Source: Chitinophagaceae bacterium (GTDB taxonomy: Bacteria; Bacteroidota; Bacteroidia; Chitinophagales; Chitinophagaceae). Taken from it: 64,000 bases of DNA. Position numbers and translations under genes: made by a program. The first letter of the stretch is position 1, and each line of letters starts with the position of its first letter. Shown here piece after piece: positions 9,160 to 60,301 of the stretch. The stretch covers positions 496,001-560,000 of the forward strand of contig JAIEMP010000004.1 of assembly GCA_019752045.1 (NCBI GenBank), in the 5' to 3' direction. Under the pieces are notes generated by a model that saw nothing but the letters and a program-made list of their open reading frames with translations, was not told the origin of the DNA and searched no databases.

Positions 9160-12100
9160 TCACTCACCCACTTTAATCCTCACTCCTTCACTATGACTTG
9201 TAAACTCAGGTGCATACATACATTGTATGGTGGTGATACCACTGCTGTAGTTCCCGGCATGTGTAATGAACATCGGGTATTCAAACACATAGGTGCCTTT
9301 CGTTAACCAGCCAAAGAAAAAGTTGGTGCTGGCATCTTTGGTGCTTTCATAATAACCCAAACCGCCCTGCCATTTATAAGAACTGATTACATTTACCGGT
9401 TCCATACAACTTGGACGCATATCTTTCATGTGTACATATTCCATGTTACGATCAACACGTAGTTCAATACGTACTTTTATTTTATCACCTACTTTCAATT
9501 CGTCGCCTTCGTTTACAGGAGTCAGGACTGGTCCATTGCCAGTATTGCGTTCAACAAAATATTTCTTCTGCAATTTCAATGGTGTTTCCGCTGAGGAGAT
9601 TTTGTCTAAGTTTTCAAAGTATTGCCAGTAAGCACTTCCCCATGAAGGTTGATTGTTGCTCTTACTTACTGTTACTTTAATATTGCCCATCTCCGGCTTT
9701 ACAAAACTGCCTTCAATGCTCCTTTTAAAATAACCTGTACCTGCTTCTGTGGCCCCCTCCTGACCTCCCCCAAGAGAGGAGGAGAAATCCATCACACCCG
9801 CTTTGATCTCTACTACCGGTTCTGATGCAATCCATTCGCCACCTTGTAATAACAATGCATAACATGCTTCAGCCGTTGCAATGGTTGTTTTCCAGTTCTG
9901 TGTTTGTTTTTGTTTCAACAACCATGTCTTGAGATCACTCACTGCTTTTTGATCATTGCTTACATCATTGAATACTTCAATCATCAATGCCTGTGCTTCA
10001 ACAGGAGCCTGGTGCCAGTAATAACCGGCATTGAATTCTTTCCAGTACATACCCATCTCTTCACTCAGCAATGCATTTTCTTTTAAGGAACTCACTATAG
10101 CTGTTGCTGTTTTAAGATCCTTACTGCGATGCAATGCCAATGCAATCATTCCCTGCATATACTTGCTTTGCTGCAACCAATACAGCTGACTTTGTTTATA
10201 ATAATAATCATAAGCCGTTTTACTTGCTGCTGCAACAGGTACATCTTTAAAGAAGCTCCGCATATAGAAATACTGAATCTGTGTGCTGTTAAGATTGTTA
10301 TTTTTCAGTGCCACTTTATACTTCAACAGGTAATCATAATCTTCTTTTAATTTAAGATCGAGATACGGAATTGCTTTTGCAAGAATAGCATTGATCGCTT
10401 TCTCCTGATCTTTTGGTAATGCATTCAGCTTTTTTAAATGACCGATTCCTGTTACTATATATTGTGTAATGTAACGATCATCGGGCCCGCCTTTGAACCA
10501 TACAAAACCGCCATTGGATGATTGCATGCCTTGTAACTGCGCCATCGCTTTGCTTAGCTCACTGCTCATACGGATCATATCAAACAGCAATGCAATATTT
10601 TTCTTTTGCTGTTCTTCATTCTTTGCCTGCAAAACCCAGGGTGTTTCCTGTAACAACACTGATTTTAATTCTTCATTCTTTTGCAGATTACTTTGTAAGG
10701 CCTGTGGCGAGGAATTTTTCCATTGTTCAAAAACCGCTTTAATGCGTGGAAGTTTATTAGTGATATGCGATGCTAAGGCGTTTGCATAAAACCTGTTCCA
10801 TGTTTGTTCCGCACAGTCGTATGGATACTCCATTAAATAAGGCAGGGCCTGTACAGCATACCAAACAGGGTTGCTGGTAAATTCAATGGTGAATTTGTGA
10901 TGAGTTAGACTTTCTGAGGCCCCCTCCCGACCTCCCCCGGAAGGGGAGGAGTTAAGCAGTTTGCTAAACGTAAAATTCTTTGTGCCATCGCCACGCATGG
11001 GTAGTGGTAATGTTTCTGTTACCAGCATACGATTGGTGAGTACAGGAAGAGTCGCTTCTTCTCCGTCACTTTTATCTTCTGCTTTGGCAATAATTCTATA
11101 CGTTAATGCTTCATTGAAATTGTAAGGAACTTCTGTTCTGAATTTTACTACTGTGCTTTGATTTGCTCCAACAGTAAAATGCTGAACAGGAAATGTATTC
11201 TGGAACCAGCCATCAACCGGTTGCATGGTAGCTGTGTTGATGAGTTGCAGATTGCTTACACCGGTTATTTCTTTGTTTGTGAGATTAGTGATCTTGGCAG
11301 TAAATTCAAAGCGATCGCCTTCACGTAAGAAACGTGGAGCAAATGGTTGTACCATCAGATCTTTTTGTGTGATGATGGATTTTTCAGAAATACCCAGCGA
11401 CAGATCTTTTGTATGTGCCAGCAACAACCATTTCCATTTAGTGAGTGCTTCGGGCATGGTAAAACTAAAACTGATGTTACCTGCTGAATCTGTTTTTAGA
11501 TCAGGAAAGAAGAAAGCGGTTTCATTAAAGTTTTTACGAACCTGCACATCAACCGTTTGAATTTTTACTCCATTTTTTGTTGTAATTATAATTACTCCAT
11601 TTTTCGCCGCAGATCCGTACAATGCAATTGCATCATTATTTTTAAGTACTGAAAATTCAACAATTTCATCGGGATTCAATTTCTGATATTCTTCAAAGCT
11701 GATAATTTTGCCATCAACAACAATAAGCACGTTGTTAGAAGCTGTTATTGAAGTGTTTCCTCTTATCCTTACATCTTGTCCTGTGCCCAGAGCTCCAGAA
11801 TTATTTGTTATAACAACTTCGTTCATTTGTGAATCTTGTATAGGTGCGCCAGCTGCTTGCTCAATTGCTACACCAGGAGCCCTTCCTTGTAATACTTTTG
11901 TTCTATATTGTCTTCCAGTCCTATCAATAAATAATCCTAAGATCTCATCATATCGTTTATCAAATGCCTTCCATGTTTGTGTTCTCCATTCTCTTTTCCA
12001 TGAATTGATGGTTGTAAAACCGGCAGCATTCCAGCCGTTGTTGATGTAGTTGATGGAATGCAGATCCGGTTTACTCCAGGCATGTGGTTTAAACTGATCT

Positions 12101-21188: not shown

Positions 21189-21226
21189 ATTCCTATTTCT
21201 TTGCTCATTCTGGTAACCGGTGCAGC

Positions 21227-21302
21227 CTCAGTATTGCGCAGGCTTCTCGCTTGGACTATTGTAATTTAATGTCATTTTATGAAGGTACAAGCGAGACGCT
21301 TG
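21227..21302. repeat. Inverted-repeat element, copy A, flanking the toxin-antitoxin pair
   Basis: About 75 bp. The inner core ACTATTGTAATTTAAT and TCATTTTATGAAGGTACAAG is shared almost exactly with copy B (21969-22045). The ends are imperfect inverted repeats: GC-GGC-TCTCGCTTG-AC on the left and GTACAAGCGAGACGC on the right. Same orientation as copy B. Confidence 0.75.
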
Positions 21303-21326
21303 CAGCAGGTTGGGCCATGTTTAGGT

Positions 21327-21948: not shown

Positions 21949-21968
21949 ATATAAGAAATTTATGGAGA

Positions 21969-22045
21969 CTCAGTATAGCGCAATCGTTTCGCTTGTACTA
22001 TTGTAATTTAATATCATTTTATGAAGGTACAAGCAAGACAATTGC
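21969..22045. repeat. Inverted-repeat element, copy B, flanking the toxin-antitoxin pair
   Basis: Begins CTCAGTATAGCGCA (copy A: CTCAGTATTGCGCA) and continues through TTGTACTATTGTAATTTAAT and TCATTTTATGAAGGTACAAG. Left and right ends are imperfect inverted repeats (about 16 of 19). Same orientation as copy A, about 740 bp away, starting 20 bp upstream of the antitoxin start. Confidence 0.75.
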
Positions 22046-25991: not shown

Positions 25992-26017
25992 AGTATTTAA
26001 TTGGAGGGTTAAATTTT

Positions 26018-26047
26018 TCCTCCCTTCCGGGGAGGTCAGGAGGGGCT
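26018..26047. repeat. GC-rich repeat copy overlapping the MlaF-like gene end
   Basis: TCCTCCCTTCCGGGG followed by AGGTCAGGAGGGGCTT. Nearly identical to the reverse complement of the in-gene copy at 10918. It supplies the stop codon and the last residues of the MlaF-like protein. Confidence 0.65.
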
Positions 26048-26836
26048 TCTTCTGTCTTCGCTGATCTTCCCTTTTGCTTCCATCATCCGCATTTCTTTGG
26101 CATCCTGTAAAAATTCGGAGGCAAAAATAAATTTATTGAGCTCCTGGTTTTTACTGAAGATAATGTCTTTATTACTGCCTTCCCATTCTTTATGACCTTC
26201 GTGCATGAAAATAATTTTATCGCCAATTTCCATTACACTGTTCATGTCGTGTGTATTTACAACAGTGGTCATACCAAACTCAATGGTAATTTCTTTAATC
26301 AGCTTATCAATCACCAGTGATGTTTTTGGATCGAGGCCTGAGTTGGGCTCATCACAAAATAAAAATTTCGGATTCAGTACAATGGCTCTGGCAATACCCA
26401 CTCTTTTTTTCATACCACCGCTTATTTCGGATGGAAATTTTTGATTGGCTGCGGTGAGATTTACCCGTGCCAGTACCTGGTTTACTTTTTCCAGTTTTTG
26501 TTTTTGATTGAGGTTGGTAAACATATCCAGCGGAAACATTACATTCTGTTCCACCGTCATGGAGTCAAACAACGCAGAGCCCTGAAACAACATACCGATC
26601 TGCTGACGTAACTGCTTGCGCCCGTCTTCGTTCATACTGGTAATGCTTTCACCATCATACAGCACTTCGCCTTCATCAGGTTCAAACAAACCCACCAGGC
26701 ATTTCATCAACACCGTTTTACCACTTCCGCTTGCACCAATGATGAGGTTGCACTTGCCGGTTTCGAGTACTGCAGATACATTATCAATGACTGTTTTGCC
26801 GTTAAAACCTTTGTGTATATTGTTTATTTCAATCAT
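26036..26836 (-). CDS. MlaF-like ABC transporter ATPase
   Basis: 266 residues. Walker A GASGSGKT (34-41), Q-loop FQGSALFDSMTVEQN, the MlaF-type signature ISGGMKKR, Walker B FLFCDEPNSGLDP and switch HD in NTHDMNSV. The signature with MKKR and the paired MlaE-like permease identify the phospholipid/toluene-tolerance type importer-exporter (Mla, Mce systems), which keeps outer-membrane lipid asymmetry. The C-terminus (DRRSPS) comes from an intergenic repeat. The MlaE-like gene lies 77 bp upstream. No MCE-domain (MlaD) gene is in the window. Confidence 0.92.
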   Translation of the reverse strand: MIEINNIHKGFNGKTVIDNVSAVLETGKCNLIIGASGSGKTVLMKCLVGLFEPDEGEVLYDGESITSMNEDGRKQLRQQIGMLFQGSALFDSMTVEQNVMFPLDMFTNLNQKQKLEKVNQVLARVNLTAANQKFPSEISGGMKKRVGIARAIVLNPKFLFCDEPNSGLDPKTSLVIDKLIKEITIEFGMTTVVNTHDMNSVMEIGDKIIFMHEGHKEWEGSNKDIIFSKNQELNKFIFASEFLQDAKEMRMMEAKGKISEDRRSPS

Positions 26837-38127: not shown

Positions 38128-38154
38128 TTTTCCCCCTTTAGGGGATGGGGCTTA
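38128..38154. repeat. GC-rich repeat copy at the 3' end of atpG
   Basis: TTTTCCCCCTTTAGGGGATG then GGGCTTA. Related to the copies at 26018 and 51370. On the minus strand it starts at the atpG stop codon and can fold CCCCTAAAGGGG followed by GAAAA. Confidence 0.55.
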
Positions 38155-51369: not shown

Positions 51370-51395
51370 TCCCCCTTCAGGGGGCGGAGGGGACT
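51370..51395. repeat. GC-rich repeat copy upstream of the beta-CASP hydrolase
   Basis: TCCCCCTTCAGGGGGCGGAG then GGGACT. Related to copies at 26018 and 38128. It ends 5 bp before the next start codon, and its GGAGGGG could act as a ribosome binding site. Confidence 0.55.
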
Positions 51396-59497: not shown

Positions 59498-60301
59498 ATG
59501 ACATTCTATAAATCCACCATACTCAGTCTTGCATTTCTTTTTCTAACTGCTGTTGCATTAGCACAGGGGATAGAAAAATATATTCCTGCTGTTCCCAATC
59601 CACCGAAACTGGTCAATGATTATATTGATGTGTTGAGTGCAGATCAGGAAGCAGCATTGGAAAGAAAACTGGTGGCTTATGACGACAGCACATCTAATCA
59701 GTTTGTTGTTATTACTATTGCAGATATTGGCGATTATGATATTGGTGATTTTGCGATTGCACTTGGCCGTAAGTGGGGTGTGGGTGGTAAAGAGTTCAAC
59801 AACGGATTAATCCTTGTTATACTTATTGACAAAGAAAGAGGTAAGCGCAAAGTATGGATTGCAACCGGCTACGGACTGGAAGGCGCCATTCCTGATATTA
59901 CAACAAAGCAGATCATTGAAGCGGATATTGTTCCTAATTTTAAAGCCAATGATATTTATCGTGGGCTCGATGAAGGCACCAGCGATTTGATGCGTGCTGC
60001 CGCAGGTGAGTACAAAGCACCTGCAGGTTACAGTAATCGCAGAAAGGGAAAAGGTGGCGGTAGTTTATTAGGAGCATTTATTTTGTTCATTATTATCATG
60101 ATCATTATTTCAAAGATCAATCGTGGCGGTGGTGGTATGATGAGCAGGAGAGGTTACAGAAGCTGGGGTAATACGGTACCACCTATTTGGTTTGGGGGCG
60201 GAGGCGGTGGTTTTGGTGGTGGTGGCAGCAGCGGAGGCGGTGGTTTTGGTGGTTTTGGAGGAGGAAGCTTTGGTGGAGGCGGTGCAGGCGGTGATTGGTA
60301 A
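59498..60301 (+). CDS. TPM-domain protein, secreted with Gly-rich tail (YgcG-like)
   Basis: 267 residues. Signal peptide (residues 1-23, ending ALAQG), TPM domain with YIDVLSADQEAALERKLVAYDDSTSNQFVVITIADIGDYDIGDFAIALGRKWGVGGKEFNNGLILVI and WIATGYGLEGAIPDITTKQI, a transmembrane helix (LLGAFILFIIIMIIIS, about 190-206) and a C-terminal tail made mostly of Gly and Ser (215-267). This layout is the YgcG/DUF2207-neighbour type. The TPM domain faces the periplasm, the tail the cytosol. Confidence 0.9.
   Translation: MTFYKSTILSLAFLFLTAVALAQGIEKYIPAVPNPPKLVNDYIDVLSADQEAALERKLVAYDDSTSNQFVVITIADIGDYDIGDFAIALGRKWGVGGKEFNNGLILVILIDKERGKRKVWIATGYGLEGAIPDITTKQIIEADIVPNFKANDIYRGLDEGTSDLMRAAAGEYKAPAGYSNRRKGKGGGSLLGAFILFIIIMIIISKINRGGGGMMSRRGYRSWGNTVPPIWFGGGGGGFGGGGSSGGGGFGGFGGGSFGGGGAGGDW

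Follow-up and report, generated by a model that had tools for sequence, protein, structure and literature searches.

In-frame palindromic linkers in a Chitinophagaceae macroglobulin gene and their link to DUF559 nuclease cassettes of Bacteroidota: a probable unspliced, homing-like element

The 64,000-nt stretch of Chitinophagaceae DNA analysed here (the window; contig JAIEMP010000004.1, positions 496,001 to 560,000) contains a long minus-strand gene whose product we identify as a bacterial alpha-2-macroglobulin because Pfam finds the MG2, A2M and bMG10 domains in it. Two copies of a 34-nt palindromic element lie inside this gene (Table 1). Examination of the reading frame confirmed the initial annotation in that both copies are translated in frame as Ser/Gly-rich linkers and leave the frame unbroken; the copy encoding linker 1 is the top match to the 34-nt model in the entire genome. 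Both linkers are missing at exactly their sites in all 16 aligned orthologues, including that of a 93%-identical congener; these 16, out of 33 relatives with a match, comprise 12 congeners and four members of the family. Comparison with congener DNA showed net length gains in multiples of three, and at the site of linker 2 about 36 nt stand in place of 21 nt, with a few target codons replaced. The DUF559 nuclease described below is not found beside either macroglobulin copy.

Table 1. Position of the macroglobulin gene, its two linkers and element-like sequences in the window
Feature	Position	Strand	Remarks
Host gene, bacterial alpha-2-macroglobulin, 2099 aa	9160..15459	-	Pfam MG2, A2M, bMG10
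Linker 1, in-frame palindromic element, SSPSGGGREGA, ~residues 1503-1514	10918..10951	-	58.9 bits
Linker 2, in-frame palindromic element, SSSLGGGQEGA, ~residues 1892-1903	9751..9784	-	52.8 bits
Weak element relative	26017..26047	-	30.1 bits; 3' end of ORF 26036-26836; contains TGA at ORF end
Short C/G hairpin with G-rich outer arm, inter-ORF	38131..38145		Layout alike; no match to 34-nt model
Short C/G hairpin with G-rich outer arm, inter-ORF	51370..51384		Layout alike; no match to 34-nt model

Other parts of the macroglobulin were inspected as well. The segment GEWSVVSGQWSAGW was considered as a second insertion and dropped, since most aligned relatives have equal length there. A different palindromic insert, VPLKGDLGG, occupies one shared macroglobulin codon position in two congeners (L156 of genome G157 and L164 of genome G155) and is absent from the source genome and from eight other congeners compared. 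Residues ~1211-1302 (window ~11550-11830) gave many matches to frames of ~1000 aa in relatives, likely TonB-dependent receptor plug regions; this part of the macroglobulin looks as if it were a built-in plug-like domain.

A strict core pattern of the element occurs 15 times in the 4.16-Mb genome, and the 19-nt core found no match in 100 shuffles of the window. The pattern read backwards matched six times in the genome; this control is not independent, the pattern being nearly palindromic and its reverse also fitting the six copies, out of 15, in which a G follows the core. The 34-nt model built from the 15 strict-core copies gave at least 23 matches at E<=1e-5 and at least 102 at E<=1; these counts are lower bounds, with 150 of ~635 first-look candidates scored here and 150 in each other genome. 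Sixteen strong copies (>=45 bits) are spread over 12 genes, mostly housekeeping. The consensus is GGCCCCCTCCCGACCTCCCCCnGAAGGGGAGGAG, with no GTAG/CGTC tag beside its hairpin, and the conserved palindrome, hairpin and outer arm included, recurs in unrelated genes. The initial annotation had placed further copies at gene ends, at 26018, 38128 and 51370. The first of these holds as a weak match, while the other two fall outside the 102 matches and share with the element the layout of hairpin and G-rich arm alone. The broader statement that the element otherwise lies at gene ends does not hold for the strong subtype, found in long open frames in 16 of 16 cases. Intergenic relatives of the palindrome do exist elsewhere in the genome (e.g. 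C2:162952, C5:206027, C8:127614); several begin just past stop codons, and they share a tail, GCACA.GCC..GCTT, followed ~70 nt further on by a TGAARTGGAAGAA-like motif. They may constitute a non-autonomous form of their own or an RNA element of 3' ends.

The strong subtype is thus an element found within genes, not between them. As about nine tenths of a bacterial genome is coding, this location is unsurprising in itself, and the surprising part is the bias in reading frame. Thirteen of the 16 strong copies are read in frame -1, which encodes Ser/Gly, two in frame -2 and one in frame +0 (P = 2.6e-8 for the Ser/Gly frame at 1/6 per copy); counted per gene, frame -1 alone is used in nine of the 12 genes (P = 1.3e-5 at 1/6). 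All six frames of the consensus are free of stop codons, which therefore do not impose the bias. Among the 74 of the 102 matches that were read (>=22.5 bits), 52 fall entirely within stop-free frames of >=400 nt, the shorter of which surely include some that are not genes, and 22 lie outside such frames. Genes are not avoided, which is unusual for a REP-like element. All 20 scanned host proteins had a best NCBIfam model at E<=1e-10, several of them below NCBI's cut-off: RlmD, PurH, IcmF (two inserts), a FadB-like protein (two inserts, one frame scanned), IspG (more than one element), ArgH, TadA, PDH E1, PhzF, ValS, MurC, a nucleotide-sugar dehydrogenase, ArgC, gamma-glutamyltransferase, MetG, CobA/CysG, TrpE, ThrB and TrpF.

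Ten further linker sites of the source genome were compared with three congeners. The linker is absent from all ten in G158 and likewise in G149, the RlmD site of both holding an unrelated spacer of similar length. The sister genome G157 has the same linker at five sites, none at three and a different in-frame insert at two. The number of elements at E<=1e-5 is at least 23 in the source genome, 19 in G157, 10 in G155 and 5 in G150, and on the same lower-bound counting 1 in each of three congeners and 0 in seven; we read these uneven counts as a probably young, species-level expansion. DNA comparison with congeners further revealed that an insert usually substitutes for a variable number of target codons and is not a plain addition. 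No consistent target-site duplication was seen at the insert sites so compared, and simple insertion with target-site duplication was dropped in view of this variable replacement. The initial annotation had proposed a proliferating element whose sequence passes as a linker in one orientation and frame, and had suggested a genome-wide count, a search for depletion in the wrong frames and an alignment of homologues. Its recurrence, the skew towards one frame though six are open, and the empty sites in macroglobulins and at the other loci all support that proposal.

Absent from the initial annotation were the replacement of target codons, the intragenic nature of the strong subtype and the link to in-frame nuclease cassettes. 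The LeuRS (L064) and Acs (L060) genes of the source genome each contain, in the host frame, a DUF559 domain between inverted palindromes. At least one hairpin occurs at each of the five DUF559 loci of this genome: on both sides in LeuRS, Acs and the stand-alone gene L092, on one side, ~70 nt off, at L095, and ~440 nt off at L096. This amounts to 10 hairpins in 16.6 kb versus three in the 64-kb window. The same hairpins were found 0 times in 23.1 kb around the eight Y1-transposase (Y1_Tnp) genes of the genome, scanned with up to 1.5 kb of flank and less at contig ends; the Y1 zero alone is weak, as ~1 hairpin per set is expected at window density. LeuRS L064 has two further short repeat-like inserts, NPSTGSGQAPL (~residues 27-37) and PSFGGDLGEVRGAALE (~680-705), and the latter site is also occupied by full cassettes in other genera.

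DUF559 domains are also found in relatives of the source organism. In a family sample of 147 genomes, the source genome included, it was present in 76, and 62 of the 128 listed matches of >=86 bits lay in frames of >=300 aa, from 45 genomes. Across a sample of the phylum, a match at E<=1e-15 was obtained in 126 of 296 genomes, and 44 of 150 among the matches listed lay in frames of >=300 aa. Cassette hosts identified by NCBIfam or Pfam, one or two copies each, are Acs, AroC, MetG, MetH, HsdR, a DEXH helicase and LeuRS. Inspection by eye added CinA and one further site each in MetH and LeuRS. LeuRS site A also holds a cassette in a second family of the same class (L306, L309), and HsdR cassettes recur, by eye, in the phylum sample (L311, L313, L317, L326). 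The cassette has the order outer arm, hairpin, nuclease, hairpin, outer arm. The best inverted-repeat score between the 170-nt flanks had a median of 15 in 49 in-frame cassettes versus 7 in 56 control pairs drawn from more distant parts of these loci. Scores above the highest control value, 11, were reached by 34 of the 49 in-frame cassettes, the other 15 staying at or below it, and by seven of 11 stand-alone genes.

The cassette domain belongs to DUF559 and is related in fold and sequence to I-Bth0305I, a homing endonuclease of the EDxHD family. Residues T13, E16, W20, RRQ33-35, E55, D57, G58, H61 and D70 are invariant in all 49 in-frame copies, and D44 is retained in 48; with such an invariant core, the in-frame domains do not look as though they are decaying. 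A PDB sequence profile search returned 3r3p (I-Bth0305I) at E=4.2e-6. The nuclease modeled alone (pLDDT 90.6) matched the folds of 3hrl (Z 14.9), the I-Bth0305I catalytic domain 3r3p (Z 11.3) and Vsr 1cw0 (Z 10.5); RAP domains of mitoribosomal proteins and FASTKD4 also stood high in the fold listing (Z 8.6-10.2, the highest of them level with Vsr), and its lower rows were mostly general nuclease folds. The features of the EDxHD group, a Vsr-like catalytic domain with conserved acidic and histidine residues, are present, and a DUF559 gene is assigned to the EDxHD homing endonucleases, a family that has been reviewed, in an earlier report (PMC9403480). The cassette domain, in which these catalytic-type residues are conserved, is presumably an active nuclease. 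In a model of the LeuRS protein, built from a 36-row alignment with a moderate mean pLDDT of 67 and used for domain borders alone, the nuclease domain spans residues 325-439 (block pLDDT ~71-90), and the palindrome-coded linkers form the low-confidence stretches 304-321 and 444-454, the insert lying between two editing-region strands. In the one insert scanned, that of the LeuRS L172, DUF559 and MTES_1575 were the sole Pfam hits, with no splicing domain of the intein kind, and the intein reading was dropped on this basis. A group I or II intron was likewise dropped, ten cassette-bearing loci having given no Rfam match at gathering score, to a catalogued intron RNA or otherwise. The cassettes are presumably translated without splicing.

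Filled and empty alleles are scattered among close relatives. Among eighty named LeuRS loci and that of the source genome, 28 have a filled site A, 49 have an empty one and four are unclassified; filled loci are over-represented because the query contained the cassette. Of the unclassified loci, L195 and L203 hold a DUF559 domain and L202 looks empty; L228 was counted as empty despite a lone palindrome at site A. A FastTree LeuRS tree requires at least 14 changes between filled and empty, of which 11-12 are forced by starred (well-supported) branches alone. The source genome groups in this tree with Lacibacter cauensis and L. luteus, both of which are empty at site A. AroC carries a cassette in three of 14 congeners and is empty at identical codons in the other 11; the flanks of the empty G158 allele are 99% and 93% identical, on the two sides, to those of the filled G157 allele. 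Within the genus, the source genome and G157 both have a filled Acs, and a further enzyme is filled in G157 as well as in G155.

A tree of 60 cassettes groups the in-frame copies by site, with 13 site changes where the minimum possible is 10 and the shuffle mean is 28.5. On one starred branch, copies of LeuRS site A, AroC and LeuRS site B are mixed, and L183, which adjoins L181 and L197 in the LeuRS tree, has a cassette of a different clade. Clustering by site together with the mixed branch indicates both persistence of cassettes at their sites and arrival at new sites. The LeuRS and Acs cassettes of the source genome belong to different cassette clades, and a recent transposition from one gene to the other was dropped for that reason. 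Between the LeuRS genes of the source genome and L172, agreement at four-fold sites is 0.88 in the cassette, 0.74 upstream and 0.64 downstream; as a footprint of homing by co-conversion, this single pair is suggestive only. L172 has the same junctions as G157 and apparently comes from the same organism or one very near.

Several observations connect the lone palindromes with the cassettes. At the LeuRS site, L181, from a near relative, has a full cassette and L228, from another with an 85% identical LeuRS, has one palindrome with both outer arms; such a remnant would be expected from recombination of the two hairpins, and it may also possibly represent an earlier stage. Subtypes of lone copies resemble cassette ends, GGDLEGA being similar to the LeuRS cassette and GGGLVGA to the Acs cassette. 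A 12-nt inner motif of the cassette, chosen post hoc after the RlmD copy and the AroC cassette had been seen, is present (>=9/12 match) in nine of 59 palindrome copies versus none of 118 control windows. Across 14 congeners, the element count correlates with the count of in-frame DUF559 domains (rho 0.72, p 0.002 with internal-stop matches left out; rho 0.79, p 0.0008 with these included), a correlation that ignores kinship and includes three frames (L339, L357, L342) that are run-on and not inserts. These three congener DUF559 frames continue stop-free into the start of downstream genes that resemble, by eye, those for ArgB and a HisA-type enzyme.

Our best explanation, to which we give a probability of roughly two in three, is an unspliced, in-frame, homing-like element, the small linkers being its ends, deletion scars or non-autonomous derivatives. 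The 34-nt repeat would be one end, outer arm plus hairpin, of a family of in-frame mobile cassettes of Bacteroidota, and a complete cassette would have the DUF559/EDxHD nuclease in the host frame with a hairpin and an outer arm on each side. Placed in loops of conserved proteins, it would be translated as an extra domain joined by Ser/Gly/Pro linkers that the palindromes encode. The likely role of the nuclease is to cut the empty allele, whereupon repair would copy the cassette in; what was observed on this point is the scatter of filled and empty alleles. Lone copies of 34-50 nt, including the two in the macroglobulin, probably descend from cassettes as remnants or non-autonomous derivatives, and may persist where the reading frame yields a harmless linker. 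Several observations count against this explanation: the macroglobulin copies have no neighbouring nuclease, inserts show variable replacement of target codons and no consistent target-site duplication, the half-element is the commonest lone form, the clustering of cassettes by site is also in part what vertical inheritance with losses would produce, and many palindrome relatives (22 of 74) lie outside long frames. The bias in the LeuRS filled/empty ratio, the kinship ignored in the 14-species correlation and the post hoc choice of the inner motif weigh on the same side.

The palindromes could instead be primary, a REP- or RPE-like element that is moved by another enzyme, spreads in frame and is invaded by DUF559 later. 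The source genome has 16 strong lone or half copies versus two in-frame cassettes, there are intergenic relatives with a tail of their own, and the half-element is the commonest lone form, all of which would suit this order of events. We nevertheless regard it as rather unlikely, given the 10 hairpins at five DUF559 loci versus none at eight Y1 loci (even with the Y1 zero weak alone), the cassette-type inner sequence in some lone copies (albeit by a post hoc motif) and the way palindrome number tracks in-frame DUF559 number. The site clustering of cassettes, at 13 changes versus a mean of 28.5 in shuffles, speaks for ancient insertions that were passed on vertically and lost at random, with no present mobility. 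That history is harder still to credit, as AroC is filled in one and empty in the other of two congeners with nearly identical flanks, sister species differ at several loci, the LeuRS tree demands its 14 or more changes, and L183 carries a cassette foreign to the clade of its neighbours.

Two further alternatives deserve almost no weight. Ser/Gly linkers are common in proteins, and GC-rich or Ser/Gly-coding stretches might arise by chance gene by gene; a conserved DNA palindrome in unrelated genes, complete with hairpin and outer arm, already refutes this at the DNA level, and the core failed to appear in 100 window shuffles. Many of the genomes examined are metagenome-assembled, which would favour an artefact of sequencing, assembly or binning, or pseudogenes. 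However, cassettes are present in the named isolates Agriterribacter humi (L175) and Taibaiella soli (L190), frames in tens of genomes remain open through cassettes of ~150 aa and the core of the nuclease is retained, so that this too is extremely improbable.

The homing-like element has partial counterparts among known systems. We know of no established driver of the coding palindromes of Rickettsia (RPEs), some families of which reportedly prefer one reading frame, as do 13 of the 16 strong copies here. Knowledge of such in-frame palindromes in Rickettsia goes back to 2000, and the accessible text of two reports places them in many unrelated protein genes (PMC10969869, PMC3733652). The present palindrome is like them in lying in frame within functional ORFs (16 of 16 strong copies) and is set apart by description: RPEs are ~150 bp long, are found in Rickettsia and are accompanied by no mention of a nuclease cassette in that text, whereas the elements here are 34-50 nt long, occur in Bacteroidota and have an EDxHD-type cassette. 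REP sequences, according to the accessible part of one of these reports, are short hairpin repeats that are mostly intergenic, with some intragenic and many of those in replication or repair genes (PMC3733652). Unlike the REP/RAYT system with its GTAG/CGTC tag, the present consensus has no such tag, no palindrome lies at the eight Y1 loci and the strong copies are all intragenic; a REP/RAYT origin was dropped on account of the Y1 loci, a weak ground in that ~1 hairpin is expected there by window density.

The ShiLan domain of phage methylases, as far as its accessible description goes, is a stop-free insertion in the host frame with no detectable splicing domain, a scattered distribution and a homing-type nuclease inside, on computational evidence (PMC11855218). 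The ShiLan nuclease is, in that description, an HNH enzyme hidden in another frame, whereas the nuclease here is DUF559/EDxHD-like, is read in the frame of the host gene and has at its borders palindromes that also occur alone. The cassettes resemble inteins and intron-borne EDxHD homing endonucleases such as I-Bth0305I in the fold and sequence of the nuclease, in their residence in conserved genes and in having filled and empty alleles; they differ in having no splicing domain (one LeuRS insert) and no catalogued intron RNA (ten loci). Their terminal inverted repeats, above the control maximum in 34 of 49 in-frame cassettes, are shared with MITEs and transposons. A search of the open-access literature, with most subscription journals outside it, returned no description of DUF559 as an in-frame insertion, and none of the open-access papers naming DUF559 concerned in-frame insertion by title.

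The larger and newer point is the tie of the palindromes to an in-frame, homing-type nuclease cassette, and there is a fair chance that this is a distinct class. For the full form of that proposal we see even odds: a class of selfish element found across Bacteroidota, in which a palindrome-bounded homing nuclease would dispense with splicing by living permanently in frame as a loop domain of essential enzymes, like an 'unspliced intein', and would, through what its decay leaves or what derives from it, seed many Ser/Gly linkers into the proteome. A candidate driver here sits between the same kind of palindromes as those of Rickettsia, and filled and empty alleles in sister species make its mobility directly testable. 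If the proposal is true, homing nucleases have a further way to live in conserved genes without splicing, and bacterial proteins acquire new linkers and domains from this source. Annotators and users of structure prediction should be warned that many Bacteroidota enzymes may bear parasite-derived inserts.

The window also contains repeats of other kinds. An 83-nt direct repeat at 21221-21303 and 21963-22045 has copies that are 86% identical and 742 nt apart, and a glycine-rich tandem coding repeat, GCGGAGGCGGTGGTTTTGGTGG, lies at 60198-60282.
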